A stretch of DNA of 21,080 bases. Source: Amoeboaphelidium occidentale (taxonomy: Eukaryota; Aphelidiomycota; Aphelidea). The notes under the pieces are model-generated. The model did no database searches. It was not told where the DNA came from and saw only the letters and a list, made by a program, of their open reading frames with translations. Where the stretch lies: contig JALGPX010000076.1 in assembly GCA_023515795.1 (NCBI GenBank), positions 42,155 through 63,234 on the forward strand, read 5' to 3'. The translations under genes were made by a program, and so were the position numbers. Positions 1,427 through 18,135 of this stretch are shown here, piece by piece (position 1 is the stretch's first letter; each line of letters starts with the position of its first letter).

Positions 1427-3332
<1,906 letters not shown>

Positions 3333-3378: not shown

Positions 3379-5754
3379 ATGGACCGCTTACAATTAATAA
3401 ACGAAAAGAAGGAATTTTCTGAGCAACTTACGGAATACACAACGGATAAATGGCAAATCTCTCAGTTGGGTTTCGATTACAACGTTATCGCAGTCTTTGG
3501 TTCCCAGAGCACCGGAAAATCGACACTGCTGAACCGTTTGTTCGAGACTGAATTTGACGTAATGGACACCGCCAACAGAAAGCGAACAACTAAAGGTTCC
3601 TTCCATTCTTCCGTAGAAGTCTGACTTATTTGAAGGTGTCTGGTTGAGTAAAGCTAAAAGTTCAAATGTTTTGGTTCTTGATGTCGAAGGCACGGATGGA
3701 AGGGAGCGTGGCGAAGATCAGGAATTCGAGCGAAGGACTGCCCTGTTCTCATTGGCTGTAGCCGAAGTCATTATCATCAATTTATGGGAGAACATGGTGG
3801 GTCTGTATAACGGTGCAAACATGGGACTGTTGAAGACTGTTCTTGAAGTCAATTTGCAGCTGTTTCATCACGATCGCGCAGATGATCAGCAGTCACAGAA
3901 GACCCTGCTCTTATTCGTCATAAGAGATTTCATTGGTACCACTCCATTGGAGAATCTGAAAGAAGTTATGCGTGGATCATTGGAGGGAGTCTGGGCTGAG
4001 CTTGGTAAACCGAAAGGCAGCGAGAATGCCTCTCTCTATGACTTTTTTGACTTTGAATTCACAACATTACCTCACAAGATTCTACAGGCTGATAAGTTTG
4101 ACCAAGAAGTTATGCAATTAAGACAGCGTTTTGAAGGTGCGGCATCTGCTGATAATTCATGTTTCTTCAAAAGCAATTATCACAAAAACATTCCTGCAGA
4201 CGGTTTTCCATATTTTGCAAAGACTATTTGGGAGAAGATTACGTCTAATAAGGATCTTGATCTTCCAACACAGAGACAGTTGTTGGCGCAATATCGCTGT
4301 GATGAAATCACAACTATTGTCTTTGGTCGTTTTTGTGACGACTTAAAGGAAAAGGAGGCATTAGCTGATGCAGGGAATGTTCTTGAAGACTTTGCAAAGT
4401 TGCAAGAAGTAAGAGAGAAAGCTTTAGAGTCTTTTCAGAAAGATGCTTCAAGATATCACAAGGACGTTTTTGATAGAAAGAATGACGAGTTACTGGAAAA
4501 ACTGAATTCAAAACTTCATTTACTGTTCTTATCACAGTTGCGCAATCTTAGAAAGAAGGCGGTCTCTGATTTCAAGACGAAAGTTCAAGCGATTCTTCGT
4601 AGCTCAGATTCAAAGGCTGCAGAGAATTTAATACTAGCCCAGAATGAAGCCAAGGAGTACTTTTCTTCATCTGCAAAAGAAGCAATCTTATCGAAAACTG
4701 GCTGGTCTTGTGATGAAGAGATCAAGTCATTTATCGAAGAGATTTATGAAGTATCCTCGTCCTTAAGGAGAGAAGAAATGAACAGAACTCTTAAAAAGCT
4801 TCTAAAAGGGTTCTCTCACAAAATTGGTGAAGTTGTATGTGATGAATTCTTGGATATGAAACCTACAATGTGGGATTCCATACTTGATGCTTATAAGGAA
4901 AACACCAGAAAGACCGTCGAAACATATGCTACCAAGCTGTCTGATTTCGGAGCCAGCGAAGAAGAAATTGATGAATTGGATGATCAGCTAGAAAGAGAGA
5001 TATGGGAATCGTTCTGGAACAAAGTATTGGAAGAATGTTCAGAATCTATGCTACAATTGAAACTACGGAAGAAGTTTGAAGACTTGTTCAGATATGATCA
5101 AGATGGGCTTCCAAGAGTATTCAAACAAGGAGACAATATTGACAAGTTTTTCAAAGATGCCAGAGATTCCTGTGAGGGTTTAATTCAATTATTTTCAAAG
5201 ATGCCATTACCAGACCCACTTTACGAGAATGAATACATCAAAGAGACTGAAGGATATGATGAAGAACGGCGTGCTATTCTAATTCTATCGCAAAGCAAAC
5301 AAAGAGATCTTTTGGAACGCTTGAAACGTGATTCTGATGCTATATTTATGGAAGTTAAAAGAGGCCTGATGACTACATTCTCTGAAGTTCCAAAGGAGAT
5401 GTGGTTGGCTTTGGCTGTTCTTGGTTTCAACGAGTTCTATTCTTTGCTGTCTTTCATGCTTTCTAATCCATTGGTTCTTTCACTTTTAATTGTTGTTGCG
5501 ATATCAGGGTAAGACTTATCAAGGAGATACTTGAATTCTGTAGGATCGTGTTATATCAAACTGGAACATTGAATATTGTGCTGAAGACCTCTATCAAAGT
5601 AGCAATGCAGAATATCAAGCCTACTATCGATATCATCAGAAATGTCTTAAAAGAAGCTTTGCAACAGGCAGCGCAAGCCGTGAATAATGGTAACATAGAG
5701 ATGGAACAGCTATCACCAAAACCTAAATCGCCAAAAGACAAAAAGGACGAATAA
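3379..5754 (+). CDS. SEY1: Sey1/RHD3-type dynamin-like GTPase for ER membrane fusion, three exons
   Basis: Atlastin-like GTPase that tethers and fuses ER tubules. Exons 3379-3595, 3636-5508 and 5544-5754 give 766 residues (yeast Sey1 has about 776). Motifs: P-loop GSQSTGKS (41-48), TTKGVWL restored by splicing, the switch region DVEGTDGRERGEDQ, and the guanine-binding RD in VIRDFIG. A long helical middle leads to a C-terminal membrane hairpin (WLALAVLGF to the AISGIVLYQTG join), then an amphipathic helix and a charged Lys/Asp tail. Intron 1 (40 nt) has a CTGAC branch motif and intron 2 (35 nt) has donor GTAAGA. The first ATG, MDRLQLINEKKEF, aligns with the Sey1 N-terminus. The longer frame upstream starts only at TTG and is not used. 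The gene converges on prefoldin 2 with 8 bp between stop codons. Confidence 0.95.
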
Positions 5755-7225: not shown

Positions 7226-10200
7226 CTAGAACCCGCTAAATGCATTTTCGTCAATACTGTTATCCCATAGCTCGACTTTAGAATCGGCTTTGCCCCAAGC
7301 AATGAAATTCGAAGTATCGCCAGCATGACTGAACTTGGGCACATACGGAGCTGGAACTTCTCTTCGCCTCAGCTGATCCCATTCAATTCCTTTAAACCAT
7401 TTGTGTTTCTTGATATCATCTATACCACCAGGCCCACAACCAAGCCTTTTAGAAGGATTGCGGTTAAGTAAGGACTTGATTAAATCCTTTGCGTTGTTGT
7501 CAAAACCCCATGGAAACTCCACGTTTCCGTATAAGACTTTTCTGTAGATCGCAGCAACATTAGAGTCGTGGAAAGGAGTGTATCCTACGAGCATTTCATA
7601 AATAAGAATACCAAGAGCGTAGAAATCCACAGACTTGTTGTAGCCAGGCCCCCTTCCACCAAGTTCGGCATTAAGAATAATTTCTGGTGAAATGTATTGT
7701 GGTGTTCCACAGAAACTACTAGTTCTTTGTCTCCTGTTTGTAAGATACTTTGCAAAGCCCATATCAACAATTTTAATGTGTCCCATAGCATCTATAAGAA
7801 TATTTTCTGGTTTCAAATCTCTGTAGATGATCTGTTTCGAATGGATATCTTCAAAGAATAGCAAAACCTCTGCTGCATAGAATTTTGCTGTTTCGTTTGA
7901 AAATCGCTTCTGCAACGACAGCTGTGTGAAAAGCTCTCCACCAATAGCATACTCCATGATGATGTAGAGGCACTGATCATCCTGAAAAGAACCAATGAAT
8001 GAAACTATAAACGAAGAATTCATGTCACGTAGCACATTCCTCTCATTAATAACGTGCTTCACTTCTTTTGCTTTGTAAATGTCGGCTTTTCTCAGTACTT
8101 TCATGGCGAAGTACTTTTCTGAAACTTTGTGCTGAACCAAGTAGACGCGACCAAACGATCCCCTTCCAATGAATTGAATCTTTTCGAAGTCCTCTAAACA
8201 AGGATTTCGTATTTTGAAACTGAGCGATGGCCCAACTATCTTTGCAAACCTCTTAATGAAAGGAACAACAAAAGCGGAGCAAGTTATCAAGTTTCCCATG
8301 TGAGAGCTATGTGGAACCAGGGAAATCTCTTTCAAAGGGATGTCTTTCGTGCATGTAGAGGCCTCTTGAATTAGAAGACGTGATTCCACAAGTTCGTCTT
8401 GATCTCCGATCCATAAACCTAATGGAGTATTTAAATTCTTCAATAAGCGAAAAATATTTCGACAAACTATTGAATCCCATAATTGACTTGAAACCTGGTC
8501 TTCTCCGCTAAGGTCAATAGTCGACATGCGCCTTTGCACGGCATTAAGGAACCGGAATGTTCCCGAGTGACTGAATGACTTGTTTGGTGAAAACCAAGAA
8601 CTTTCTGACACTGTTGAATACATTGACCTCATACTATCATGTTTGATTATCTTCTGGTCGACGTAATGCGGACTATTCATATCAATAACGGGCGATATAA
8701 TCAAGTAGCCATTAACTTCCTCCTTGTACTTCCAAGCGGAATAATTCAATGCAACAGAAGCACCAAATCCATGACCACCCAATATTAAAGGCATTTCTGG
8801 GTCATTGAACTTCAAGTGTCTAATTAAAACTTTTACATCGCTAAAAATAGATTCGGATGAAAAGCAAGCGTTTGCGTTATCAATACCTCTTAAATCCAAG
8901 GCATAAGCTGCCACATCACATTTTTGAGCTACTAGCCATGGAAGAAGAACTTTGATATCGGTCTGTAAGAAGACAACATTTGCAATGACTTTTTTGTTTG
9001 ATCCAGAAGTGAAAACATTGTATCGAATTTGCGAACCGTCGTTTGCCAGCAGATAGAACGGTTTCACATTTTTCTCTTTGTCTAATCCTAAGGCTACAAC
9101 ATTCTTCACAACAAGGTCTAGGTCTCTCAGTTTCGAATGCTTCATCGTGACAGAATCTGATTCTCCTTCCAAAACATCCTGATTATTAACGACGGATTCA
9201 AACTCGGTCGTCAGCTGTACTTTCTTGATATCATCCAATGTGACTATCCAGTCAGCAATTAACTTTCCAACGCTTGACAGAACGCCCATATGTGTAAGAC
9301 CAGGCAGGATATTAATGGAACTGGCTACTTTAGCGGCTCTAGGATAATGCACTAGCTTTTCTGGTATAAATAATTCCTCCTTCTCTCCAACATAAAAAGC
9401 AAATGGCTTTTTAAGAGCATCGAATTGCTTTTTTGGATTGTAACAAGAAAAGGCTTTTGTGAAATTATGCGTAGCAGAATCAACAATTTTGGGATTGACT
9501 TCATGTTCATGCTCTGACAAGAAGAACTGTTGTACCTGCTTGCCAAAAAGACTTTCTGTCAAAGAACTAATGTACATGTCTGAAGTTTTCCTTGGTGTCT
9601 TTTGTCCTTGAGACTGTTGCAACCTATTAATTGCTTCCCTGTTTGTGGCCTCAGCGGACGAAACACCAAAGTCAGGACTAACAAATACTAAACCATCAAC
9701 AGATTCCCAATCTTTCCATGTAGCATAATTCAAAAGCAATCCACCTTGATGATAATGACCTCCAACAAACACAGGTAAACCAGGATAGTTCAACTTCACA
9801 AATCGTATAAATGTTTTAATATCAACCCATATCTGCTCTTTACTTGGCGCAAACCCTCTCTCGCCACCAGAATTACCAAATCCCCTTAACTCTAATATAA
9901 ACGATAGCACGTTTTGTTGTTGTGAGCTTGTTTGCGACGCAACGATATCCAGAAAGTGCGAATTGCCAGCAATTATTATAAATACAGCTTCAGGTACTCC
10001 TTGCGGATAATATGAGCGATAAGAAAGTCTAATTCCATCTGTCGCTTCAACATACTCAATCTTGCCCTTCTTTATGCGTTGCAGTTCATTTAAAGTATCC
10101 TGTAGACCATGAATAACTGATTGAAGTATAATTTCGTTTTCCCTCTTTGCGAACTTGTTCAGCCCCAGTTTTCGAGACATTCGCTCGATCGATACACGAG

Positions 10201-10666
10201 ACTCAAGCTCTTCGCTTAACTGGAACTCCTCCTCCAATGCAACAATGCCCCGGACCTTACATACAACAACGTTCTCCTCTTCATTCGTGTCCATAAGTAG
10301 AAAAGCGTTTAGCATTCTCTCTCCCAAGTTCCTGGGCACAAATACCTCAATTTCAAATTCGCCGTCTCCCGTTCTGAACATCCCCAAATCTTCAAACAGC
10401 CCATGCCGTAACTCGCTTGTTCTCTTGAATGGAATTTGCCGGAGCAGCTGAACATCATCGAATATCATGTCTTTTGTTATAATGGCTTTAAGAGACGCTG
10501 CACAATTGGAAAGCTTGAAATGTGTCCTGATACGAAACTTGACAAAAGCCTTGCGCAAGTCAGCTGCATGGTGCTCCTCCACATCAGAATCGTTCTGAAA
10601 TATTTGTATAGATTCTATCGAGATCAACTCGGATGTCTGGATTTCCGTCGTCTGTACGTTTCCCAT
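7226..10666 (-). CDS. Myristoylation-type protein: two pseudo-alpha/beta-hydrolase domains fused to a PKA/PKG-like AGC kinase
   Basis: Single exon, 1146 residues, no named homologue recognised. MGNVQT fits the N-myristoylation consensus (Gly2, Thr6) and resembles PKA catalytic subunits. Residues 10-200 are not recognised. Residues about 203-476 form a monoglyceride-lipase-like fold whose nucleophile elbow reads GGHYHQGG, without serine; His459 remains. Residues about 537-808 are a second such fold with GGHGFGAS, Ser replaced by Gly633; Asp757 and His789 remain. Residues about 827-1092 are an AGC kinase: GRGSFG (834-839), Lys856, Glu875, YRDLKPEN (948-955), FCGTP. DFG is DMG (968-970) and APE is SPE. 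The protein ends FSGF, like the FxxF terminus of PKA. The kinase is probably active and the hydrolases probably are not. A ligand-sensing or regulatory role for the hydrolase folds is inference. It diverges from the ankyrin gene 83 bp away. Confidence 0.9.
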   Translation of the reverse strand: MGNVQTTEIQTSELISIESIQIFQNDSDVEEHHAADLRKAFVKFRIRTHFKLSNCAASLKAIITKDMIFDDVQLLRQIPFKRTSELRHGLFEDLGMFRTGDGEFEIEVFVPRNLGERMLNAFLLMDTNEEENVVVCKVRGIVALEEEFQLSEELESRVSIERMSRKLGLNKFAKRENEIILQSVIHGLQDTLNELQRIKKGKIEYVEATDGIRLSYRSYYPQGVPEAVFIIIAGNSHFLDIVASQTSSQQQNVLSFILELRGFGNSGGERGFAPSKEQIWVDIKTFIRFVKLNYPGLPVFVGGHYHQGGLLLNYATWKDWESVDGLVFVSPDFGVSSAEATNREAINRLQQSQGQKTPRKTSDMYISSLTESLFGKQVQQFFLSEHEHEVNPKIVDSATHNFTKAFSCYNPKKQFDALKKPFAFYVGEKEELFIPEKLVHYPRAAKVASSINILPGLTHMGVLSSVGKLIADWIVTLDDIKKVQLTTEFESVVNNQDVLEGESDSVTMKHSKLRDLDLVVKNVVALGLDKEKNVKPFYLLANDGSQIRYNVFTSGSNKKVIANVVFLQTDIKVLLPWLVAQKCDVAAYALDLRGIDNANACFSSESIFSDVKVLIRHLKFNDPEMPLILGGHGFGASVALNYSAWKYKEEVNGYLIISPVIDMNSPHYVDQKIIKHDSMRSMYSTVSESSWFSPNKSFSHSGTFRFLNAVQRRMSTIDLSGEDQVSSQLWDSIVCRNIFRLLKNLNTPLGLWIGDQDELVESRLLIQEASTCTKDIPLKEISLVPHSSHMGNLITCSAFVVPFIKRFAKIVGPSLSFKIRNPCLEDFEKIQFIGRGSFGRVYLVQHKVSEKYFAMKVLRKADIYKAKEVKHVINERNVLRDMNSSFIVSFIGSFQDDQCLYIIMEYAIGGELFTQLSLQKRFSNETAKFYAAEVLLFFEDIHSKQIIYRDLKPENILIDAMGHIKIVDMGFAKYLTNRRQRTSSFCGTPQYISPEIILNAELGGRGPGYNKSVDFYALGILIYEMLVGYTPFHDSNVAAIYRKVLYGNVEFPWGFDNNAKDLIKSLLNRNPSKRLGCGPGGIDDIKKHKWFKGIEWDQLRRREVPAPYVPKFSHAGDTSNFIAWGKADSKVELWDNSIDENAFSGF

Positions 10667-10749
10667 TGTCGCTGCGATGTTCCGTCGATTAAAGCAGGTT
10701 CGACAACAATCAGATCGGAAAATGAGGGGTTTCAGCTTTTGCCCCTCAA
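10667..10749. promoter_or_regulatory. 83-bp shared divergent promoter region
   Basis: This is all the DNA between the start codons of the kinase fusion (-) and the ankyrin gene (+), so the two probably share control elements. TGAGGGG (10723-10729) and CCCCTCA (10742-10748) form a perfect 7-bp inverted repeat with a 12-nt spacer, one base before the ankyrin ATG. Each arm holds an AGGGG/CCCCT core, the yeast stress-response element bound by Msn2/4. Use as such in this organism is not shown. Confidence 0.5.
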
Positions 10750-11424
10750 ATGAATCTTGCGCAAGAACGCCTAAAATGCGCTTTGGATAACGGACATAAA
10801 CTGGTAGTGAAGAAGATGATTACTGATGGTTCGGTGCCTGTGCGCGTAGTATTCAACAATAGTGGATATACGACATTGTTCTACGCGATCCGTTATCAGA
10901 TGAATGATTTAGTGCTATTCTTACTGGAACATGGCCATGAGCTCAATGAAGAAGGAAATTTTGACTGCTCCAGAGATATCGAGCAGAATACAGCTTTGCA
11001 CGCGGCAATCTTGTATCAGAACGAAGCTGCTTTTTTGGCATATTACTCAAAGTATCCTCACGCTCTTTCTCTAAAGAACAAGTATGGCCAGAGTGTATTG
11101 CATTTCGCAGCACGAGCAGGTCTCAATAATGTTATTGAACGAATACTTGGGAGCGTTGATATTGATGATACGGACAATGATGGTAATACACCTTTGCATT
11201 ACGCAGCTTCATGGGCTAAACAGAGTACAATTGAGTACCTCATTAACCAGGGCTGCAAGTTTTACATGAAAAACAATAAGGGCTTCACTGCAGTTGATTG
11301 TTCCTTCTCTCATGATATTGCAAACTATCTACAACTCTACGCCATCGAAGTGTTTGAATTAACAAAGAAGGACAAAAGAAGATCACATTACGCTTTGCAA
11401 GAAATTACAAATTTTGAAGAATAG
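10750..11424 (+). CDS. Ankyrin-repeat protein, Avo2-like (TORC2 subunit candidate)
   Basis: 224 residues, starting MNLAQERLKCAL. It has four or five ankyrin repeats, for example GYTTLFYAI...LVLFLLEHGHE, NTALHAAI, YGQSVLHFAARAG and DGNTPLHYAAS...TIEYLINQG, ending near NNKGFTAVDCSF and a charged tail. Spacing and order follow budding-yeast Avo2, a non-essential TORC2 subunit at the plasma membrane, including the GH after the second helix and the final repeat with a proline-less VDC/IDV block. Yeast Avo2 is longer at its C-terminus. Ankyrin proteins are hard to assign by eye, so it could be another ankyrin adaptor. BMT2 begins 23 bp after the stop. Confidence 0.6.
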   Translation: MNLAQERLKCALDNGHKLVVKKMITDGSVPVRVVFNNSGYTTLFYAIRYQMNDLVLFLLEHGHELNEEGNFDCSRDIEQNTALHAAILYQNEAAFLAYYSKYPHALSLKNKYGQSVLHFAARAGLNNVIERILGSVDIDDTDNDGNTPLHYAASWAKQSTIEYLINQGCKFYMKNNKGFTAVDCSFSHDIANYLQLYAIEVFELTKKDKRRSHYALQEITNFEE

Positions 11425-11447
11425 ACATTTTCTATTGTGCTTTTCAC

Positions 11448-12233
11448 ATGTCGAAACGTTCCAAAAGGAAATCTTTGGTCTATCGACCCAAGACTATCAA
11501 TGCATCTGAGCCTAAATTCTTTAATCCGAAAACATCGCGTAGAATTATTAATGAATATCACGTGTTATTGAAGAGGCTAAAGCTGCATCAATATGATGGC
11601 GAGCAGGAAAAGCTTGACTTGGAGCGAAGGATCAACGAAGGATTAGATACTTACCAGAAGGCGAGTCTGCTTGGTCAGAGTAAAGAGCGTGGTGGAGACT
11701 CATCCAAGTGGTTATTGCAATATCTTGAGTTATCGAAGCCACTGTCTTTGTTGGATGTTGGAGCCTTGAAGAATAACTACAAGAATTTGAAGAATATCAC
11801 GGCTAAATGTATCGACCTCAATGCACAGAATGAAGAAATTGAACAGATAGACTTCTTTGAGTACAAACTGGAGAAAGGCCAAAAGCCTTATGATGTCGTT
11901 TGTCTGTCCCTTGTCCTGAACTTTGTCGACACGCCCACTCGAAGAGGCATCATGTTACAGCGAGTCCTTGATCTTCTGAAGGAAAATGGGGGATATCTTT
12001 ATATTGTTCTTCCGCTGGCTTGTGTAGAGAATTCGCGATACATGGATAATGAGCTATTTATAGAAATTGTTACTTCGTTTGGTTTCAAACTCCTCCAGGA
12101 ACACAAGTCTACTAAACTCGCTTACTGGCTATTTGAAAGGACGCCCGCCGCTGAGGTTAAAAAGCTTGACGTCAAGAAAAAGGAGTTACGGAAGGGAAGT
12201 AACAGAAATAACTTTTTCGTGTGCAATAAATAG
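11448..12233 (+). CDS. BMT2: 25S rRNA adenine-N1 methyltransferase Bmt2
   Basis: 261 residues. Rossmann-fold SAM-dependent enzyme that makes m1A in the large-subunit rRNA in the nucleolus (known for yeast Bmt2). The basic N-terminus MSKRSKRKSLVYRPK suits a nucleolar protein. Then come NPKTSRRIINEYHVLLKRL, QKASLLGQSKERGGDSSKW, the SAM-binding LLDVGAL, the acidic CIDLN, and DVVCLSLVLNFVDTPTRRG with ERGG, all family signatures. The end NRNNFFVCNK matches the conserved RNNF near the family C-terminus. Its start is 23 bp after the ankyrin gene stop. Confidence 0.85.
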   Translation: MSKRSKRKSLVYRPKTINASEPKFFNPKTSRRIINEYHVLLKRLKLHQYDGEQEKLDLERRINEGLDTYQKASLLGQSKERGGDSSKWLLQYLELSKPLSLLDVGALKNNYKNLKNITAKCIDLNAQNEEIEQIDFFEYKLEKGQKPYDVVCLSLVLNFVDTPTRRGIMLQRVLDLLKENGGYLYIVLPLACVENSRYMDNELFIEIVTSFGFKLLQEHKSTKLAYWLFERTPAAEVKKLDVKKKELRKGSNRNNFFVCNK

Positions 12234-17046: not shown

Positions 17047-17885
17047 TCACGCAACCGTAACTCCATCAACATCAGAGGTAACGTTCGTAACATGACCCCT
17101 ATTGTGGTCTTGAGCGGACTTGCGTCCCTCTGTTACTTCGGTTTTGTTATTGTTATTTTGTTCCTGCTTCTGCTGTTTTGGTTTGAATTGTTCTGGTTTT
17201 TCTCCGTTGTTGTTGTTCATGAAAGTAAATACGAACTTCATGTTTTTTGCAGCGTTCACGTCTCTGTTCCAGTATCTGCCACAAGTAATCTTCGAGCAAA
17301 TCTTCAGACGCCATTTCCTTCCTTTTGGTAGAACAGTGAAACATTTAGCGCAAATCTTGCTGGTATTGTATTCCCAAACGTATCTACACGGAATCTTTCT
17401 TTGTTTCAACGCTTTGTAAAAGCCAACCTTCGGAATTGGAGCGTGACCACGTGAACAACTAGAAAACTTGCCACCACCAAAAGCAACAAAGACTTTCTTT
17501 CCCCTTCTTTTGATACGCTTGATCAAATGATCATAAGCCCATTGTTTATGAATGTCACACTTTCTTCTTAAAAGACGCCACTGATGAGATCCGTAAAAAG
17601 ACATCAAAGTATTCAAATTTTTAGCAAAGTAACTCAAATATTGTTTGAACTCAAGGACTGTGGCTACCTTTGCAGAAGGCATATCGGCATTGATTTTACC
17701 GATATCAGTCCGTTTACTCAACCAAACCGTTCGTTTCTTCGCAGAGAATTCAATACCAGACAATTGTCTCCATTCTCCCCCAGAACAACCAAAAGACCCA
17801 TTTTCATCATACGCATCAAACAAATCTTTCCTCCCAGGGTCTAAGCCAATGACAACAGTATCTTTTAAATCAACCGGAACATAAA
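17047..17885 (-). CDS. Fanzor C-terminal fragment: RuvC core, zinc finger, low-complexity tail
   Basis: Starts in-frame at the n at 17886 and ends at TGA 17049-17047. The first catalytic Asp is in VIGLDPGRKDLF. The middle has FVAFGGGKF and GHAPIPKVGFYKALKQR, a typical Fanzor stretch. Fanzors are reported to use a relocated glutamate, and Glu in YVWEYNTSKIC sits where it is expected. The zinc finger is CAKC plus CSKITC. The last catalytic Asp is in YWNRDVNAAKN. So all three catalytic positions appear intact. The last 55 or so residues are rich in Asn, Gln and Lys. The two hydrophobic plus-strand frames here are antisense shadows. Confidence 0.88.
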
Positions 17886-18135
17886 NAATAGTGTTTGAAC
17901 TCAAGGACTGTGGCTACCTTTGAAGAAGGCATATCGGCATTGATTTTACCGATATCAGTCCGTTTACTCAACCAAACCGTTCGTTTCTTCGCAGAGAATT
18001 CAATACCAGACAATTGTCTCCATTCTCCCCCAGAACAACCAAAAGACCCATTTTCATCATACGCATCAAACAAATCTTTCCTCCCAGGGTCCAAGCCAAT
18101 TACAACAGTATCTTTTAAATCAACTGGAACATAAA
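17637..18135. repeat. 249-bp dovetail repeat around n at 17886
   Basis: 17637-17885 and 17887-18135 match over exactly 249 bp without indels and with a few substitutions. Both copies end at the n. Encodes the first RuvC motif region. Confidence 0.85.

Follow-up and report, generated by a model that had tools for sequence, protein, structure and literature searches.

How is a PKA-like kinase controlled when it shares one chain with two lipase-like domains that lack the catalytic serine? This question is raised by a gene of Amoeboaphelidium occidentale at positions 7226..10666 on the minus strand of the window, the 21,080-nucleotide stretch of contig JALGPX010000076.1 that we analyzed. All features of the gene given below lie on the same strand. 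The gene encodes, in order, an N-terminal domain, two pseudo-hydrolase domains, and a PKA-like kinase. Its open reading frame codes for 1,146 residues from the ATG, is open from stop to stop for 1,197 codons, and contains no N bases, in agreement with the original prediction of an uninterrupted 3.4-kb frame; the GC content of the window is about 40%. Pfam placed Hydrolase_4 in two stretches of the protein and Pkinase at residues 827 to 1091. With the whole protein as query, NCBIfam returned 14 kinase-type families, every one below its cutoff, and each hydrolase domain gave one weak match, far below cutoff. We searched the full-length protein against its own genome and obtained 47 matches (best 40 of 190 candidates). 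Residues 1 to 809 were covered only by the gene itself, and the remaining 46 of the 47 matches started at or after residue 810, in the kinase part.

The PKA-like kinase domain spans residues 824 to 1096 (7379..8197), and its catalytic residues K856, E875, D950, N955, and D968 are intact. We found that these residues are kept in all five full-length proteins with this layout, the window protein and four relatives described below. The same is true of the Glu positions equivalent to E127, E170, and E230 of PKA, which we take to be the acidic positions that read substrate arginines. Activation-loop position 984 is Ser or Thr in each of the five proteins. The kinase domain is followed by an AGC-type C-tail ending in F-x-x-F-COOH (residues 1097 to 1146 plus the stop codon, 7226..7378). 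This hydrophobic motif is found in 4 of 5 proteins and is missing in P0004.

We compared the kinase with solved kinase structures and found that PKA-C alpha scored about 306 to 312 bits and PKG 254.9 bits (best 60 of 2,417 matches). The highest values, near 312, count in an expression tag that the query happens to match, and 306 is therefore the fairer figure. The kinase was originally described as PKA/PKG-like. The PKA-like part of this description stands, but PKG is not an equal relative, since PKA-C outscores it. The kinase domain shares 48% identity with mammalian PKA-C alpha and 49% with the PKA-C of its own genome (L002). In a 12-row kinase tree, the five fusion kinases formed one clade (100/99). 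This clade adjoins the pair made up of L002 and mammalian PKA-C (97/97) and is separated from five further AGC-type kinases encoded in the genome, in a tree that was built without PKG, L008, and further own-genome kinase matches, has a long row (L006), and leaves 5 of its 9 inner branches open. The L002 row probably retains a short intron between CGTPDY and APE. The fusion kinases did not group inside the PKA-C clade of this tree.

Two changes set the fusion kinases apart from PKA-C. At position 983, which corresponds to Trp196 of PKA, the five fusion proteins have S, R, F, M, and F, so that the Trp is lost in every one. All five also carry a net insertion of 7 to 8 residues at the PKA Lys213 loop, and none of the 7 other aligned kinases has it. 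In the window protein, an 11-residue loop (residues 999 to 1009, 7640..7672) replaces the 4-residue SKGY loop of PKA-C, a net insertion of 7. The PKA-C of the same genome (L002) retains both the Trp and the short loop. Trp196 and the Lys213 loop of PKA-C are presumably contacts for the regulatory (R) subunit. Loss of the one and insertion into the other suggest that R-subunit binding is weakened or lost, and the fusion kinase may thus be independent of the R subunit. A frame elsewhere in the genome (L021:811-1842) resembles a PKA regulatory subunit: it contains a pair of cNMP-binding domains as well as the sequence RRTSVS, of which RRTS is as expected for an R subunit. This shows that the genome retains ordinary cAMP-PKA parts.

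At the other end of the chain, residues 1 to 170 (10157..10666) form a conserved orphan domain that starts with MGN. We found no Pfam match for it in any of the five proteins and no PDB match at an E value of ≤10. All five N termini read MG[N/Q] and fit the N-myristoylation pattern at Gly2, and the genome encodes an N-myristoyltransferase. Gly2 of the fusion protein is therefore a predicted myristoylation site. The peak 19-residue hydropathy in the five proteins was 1.46 to 1.85, and the usual threshold of 1.6 was exceeded only in P0003 (1.85, within domain 2). Because the peak lies at a different place in each protein, we saw no conserved membrane helix.

Both lipase-like domains appear to have the alpha/beta-hydrolase fold, as judged from profile matches. 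Domain 1, of the Hydrolase_4 or monoglyceride lipase type, spans residues 200 to 478 (9233..10069), and domain 2 spans residues 509 to 812 (8231..9142). In a six-frame scan of the genome, Hydrolase_4 (PF12146) scored 58.8 bits at 9287-9922 and 41.3 bits at 8354-8923, both above the family cutoff of 27 bits. The matches cover positions 28 to 233 (domain 1) and 29 to 219 (domain 2) of the 239 positions of the model, and each domain matched in 5 of 5 full-length proteins. Against solved structures, the domain 1 profile matched poly(3-hydroxybutyrate) depolymerase best (E = 3.2e-7), then the monoglyceride lipase of Mycobacterium tuberculosis (E = 4.2e-7) and further monoglyceride lipases; the domain 2 profile matched monoglyceride lipases best (E = 3.8e-4). 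These matches to structures are partial, covering about positions 3 to 152 of 285 in domain 1 and 91 to 267 of 303 in domain 2. A direct comparison of the two domains showed them to be related, with a profile-profile probability of 99.9 and an E value of 2.6e-32 over 265 columns. Each contains a variable stretch where a lid is expected (residues 346 to 405 and 669 to 735).

We found that neither domain has the Ser in GxSxG of active monoglyceride lipases. The first elbow reads GHYHQGG (residues 303 to 309, 9740..9760), with Y305 in place of Ser and Q307 in place of the elbow Gly. The second reads GHGFGAS (residues 631 to 637, 8756..8776), with G633 in place of Ser. When aligned with monoglyceride lipases, the domains have Y305 (with the M. 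tuberculosis enzyme) and G633 in the serine column, as the original prediction had it for these two elbows. With two partial relatives (P0025 and P0026) added to the five full-length proteins, the nucleophile Ser is gone from 6 of 6 first domains (Tyr in five, Gln in P0025) and from 7 of 7 second domains, where the residue is always Gly. The other triad positions are Glu430 (9377..9379) and His459 (9290..9292) in domain 1 and Asp757 (8396..8398) and His789 (8300..8302) in domain 2. Y305, Q307, E430, H459, G633, D757, and H789 are invariant in all five full-length proteins. Under random placement, which ignores the general conservation of a pocket, the chance of all three triad positions being invariant is about 0.009 per domain. 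The His expected in each domain and the Asp expected in the second are thus present in the window protein, but the domain 1 His is not universal: P0025 keeps the Glu and has Thr at the His459 position, which suggests that the domain 1 pocket may be drifting. Loss of Ser from both domains makes this a clean case of paired pseudoenzymes.

We propose, with a probability of roughly 60%, that the protein is a myristoylated, PKA-derived kinase whose control or targeting comes from a tandem pseudo-hydrolase module that has lost catalysis and not from a cAMP-binding subunit. According to this model, the myristoylated N-terminal glycine would hold the protein at a membrane, and the two pseudo-hydrolase domains would bind a ligand or partner. 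Binding would alter access to the kinase or its activity. The kinase itself would be catalytically competent and basophilic (RRxS/T type) and would have lost part of its surface for the regulatory subunit that binds cAMP. Regulation of the kinase by the pseudo-hydrolases is suggested by the co-conservation of module and kinase in one chain. If the module does gate the kinase, this would be a second-messenger kinase rewired by domain capture, and the aphelids, as algal parasites, would have gained a signaling protein of their own. We also considered whether a conserved autophosphorylation site connects the module to the kinase. RRxS-type sites upstream of the kinase number 2, 0, 0, 0, and 1 in the five proteins (0.50 to 0.71 expected from shuffles), and we dropped this candidate because the sites are not conserved.

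The main alternative gives the tandem domains a structural role only, as a scaffold or docking platform, either for protein partners or as an intramolecular pseudo-dimer, with no sensing of a small molecule. The NDRG hydrolases, which are catalytically inactive, have been suggested to act as adaptor or scaffold proteins, in the part of that paper available to us (PMC12132217). Consistent with such a role, a segment with the pattern LNYxxWxxRExVxGYxFxSP follows each elbow; it is conserved within each domain and common to both, as an interface might be. The invariance of the triad-position residues in the five full-length proteins is not obviously required of a pure surface scaffold, however, and we regard this alternative as possible but doubtful.

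Sensing of a lipid by the pseudo-hydrolases is plausible, as a guess from their fold. A bolder form of the proposal makes the protein a soluble alpha/beta-hydrolase receptor kinase, in which the two dead pockets would bind monoacylglycerol or another acyl lipid, which might come from the algal host, and would directly gate a PKA-class kinase freed from cAMP control. In this specific form, we consider the idea unlikely. If it is true, PKA would have a lipid-gated counterpart, and we know of no other receptor kinase built on the alpha/beta-hydrolase fold.

One or both hydrolase domains might still be enzymes that use an unconventional nucleophile or register. Domain 2 retains Asp757 and His789 in 5 of 5 full-length proteins, and Ser637, four residues past the lost serine, is invariant in 7 of 7. 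Against this, the nucleophile column holds Tyr or Gln in domain 1 and Gly in domain 2, and Gln replaces the second elbow Gly of domain 1. An HG-type oxyanion stretch is a motif of active hydrolases; at the place of the AGNS of domain 1, domain 2 reads LQTD, and we saw no sign of this motif there. Ser637 would probably lie about a helical turn out of place. We therefore think residual catalysis highly unlikely.

We also compared conservation along the chain. Mean pairwise identity among the five proteins was 67% in the kinase, 50% in the C-tail, 42% in the N-terminal domain, 46 to 53% in the core parts of domain 1, and 40 to 56% in those of domain 2. It fell to 26 to 31% in the two lid stretches and 14 to 22% in the linkers. 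The hydrolase cores are thus kept while the loops drift, which indicates that the folds are under constraint. If the hydrolase part were a decaying passenger from a gene fusion, the loss of the domain 1 His in P0025 and the highly variable lids would be expected. The cores, however, have few gaps at 40 to 56% identity across five divergent full-length proteins, and the Gly of the second elbow is identical in 7 of 7. Decay is hard to reconcile with this pattern and has very little probability in our estimate. Conservation rather than decay had been suggested from the first sequence alone, and both the substitutions and the architecture are indeed kept across relatives.

An ankyrin-repeat frame (10750-11424, plus strand) is divergent from the kinase gene, and 83 bases (10667-10749) separate the two ATGs, so that the two may share a promoter. 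The neighboring frames at 3617-5512 and 11418-12233 (both plus strand) encode an ordinary Sey1/RHD3-type GTPase and an ordinary Bmt2-type 25S rRNA methyltransferase, respectively. The translation of a frame at 1947-3332 (plus strand) resembles ATP sulfurylase fused to an APS-kinase-like part and is a candidate for such a fusion. At the contig end (16900-21080), a coding piece at 17050-17913 (minus strand) appears to be TnpB/Fanzor-like, with a Pfam match to a Cas12f1-like TNB domain (E = 1.7e-8). Repeat copies around it are 94 to 98% identical and start directly behind isolated N bases (17886, 18923, and 20108). The contig end therefore looks like misassembled overlaps of one element.

The search that identified the relatives used residues 170 to 820 as the query. 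Among 6,529 candidates, we found the window protein and four further full-length proteins (P0002, P0003, P0004, and P0005) within a length range of 1,122 to 1,183 residues, and the four are 37 to 46% identical to the window protein over the query region. All five contain Pkinase and Hydrolase_4 and align end to end with the same domain order. Thus, the fusion of two nucleophile-less hydrolase domains to a kinase, as first proposed for this frame, is a layout common to four other full-length proteins and is not confined to one assembly. P0005 is named as an Amoeboaphelidium protococcarum protein. Aphelids are fungal relatives that parasitize algae and are probably a sister lineage of fungi; the suggestion to look among early-diverging fungi thus led to relatives of early fungi. 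P0004 bears a Partr_v1 identifier. According to the part of the source paper that we had, such identifiers belong to the predicted proteome of Paraphelidium tribonemae, from a Trinity transcriptome assembly (PMC6299283). P0004 is therefore a fusion relative from a transcript-derived proteome, and both parts are spanned by this transcript-derived protein in a relative rather than in the window species. That separate genes were joined by an assembly or gene-model artefact is extremely improbable: the contig end at about 17.6 to 20.4 kb looks misassembled, with a single N before repeat copies, but the gene has no N, and the architecture recurs in four other full-length proteins, one of them from a transcript-derived proteome.

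We did not find a parent hydrolase. When we looked for relatives of the pair with a single hydrolase domain (E ≤ 1e-5, 3,423 candidates), we obtained 2 proteins, the partial fusion relatives P0025 and P0026. Domain 1, used as the query against bacterial and archaeal genomes, gave 95 matching stretches, none of which was confirmed. A profile search with the five-protein alignment (best 8,000 candidates) gave 22 matches, 3 fusions and 19 proteins that cover 18 to 27% of the query, and added no fusion to those already known; it missed its own members P0004 and P0005, so that its recall is incomplete and species absences should not be read from it. The PKA-derived fusion kinase family has so far been found in aphelids, together with P0002 and P0003, which carry no lineage assignment.

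In a partial literature search, short of an exhaustive survey of architectures, we found no description of a pseudo-hydrolase-PKA fusion. In its main text, an A. protococcarum expression study does not contain the terms "lipase," "cAMP," or "MP228." The terms "lipase" and "hydrolase" are likewise absent from the main text of the Dictyostelium kinome paper (PMC1420674) and from that of the paper on "rogue" kinases (Rakshambikai et al. 2014, PMC4177888). A rogue kinase, as defined in the part of the latter paper available to us, has the kinase domain of one subfamily together with a set of domains that is not typical of any kinase subfamily, and the genomes treated are those of six model eukaryotes plus one eukaryotic pathogen (PMC4177888). 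The fusion architecture appears to fit this concept as given there. Because we found no description of it in the literature searched, we call the fusion an apparently new, lineage-restricted architecture of the rogue-kinase kind.

The hydrolase domains resemble the monoglyceride lipases and Hydrolase_4 (PF12146) in that most of the model is matched and the elbow, acid, and His positions are recognizable. They differ from these in that they lack the nucleophile serine, occur in tandem, and are joined to a kinase. With non-catalytic hydrolases such as NDRG, they would share a fold that serves binding or scaffolding, a possible likeness in the way they work. The plant receptors GID1, D14, and KAI2 and the neuroligins are non-catalytic alpha/beta hydrolases that are used for binding or scaffolding. 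We know of none of these that lies in tandem with a kinase on a single polypeptide. The kinase resembles PKA-C in its catalytic and Arg-recognition residues, in its FxxF end (4 of 5), and in its MGN-type N terminus, which PKA-C itself has. In contrast to PKA-C, it has more than 800 extra N-terminal residues, forms its own clade, has lost the Trp196 equivalent, carries the 7- to 8-residue insertion at the Lys213 loop, and has Gln for Glu in GTPEY. The usual control of PKA comes from a separate subunit that binds cAMP. In the fusion, the PKA-like kinase is permanently joined to a conserved partner module that consists of two dead lipases.
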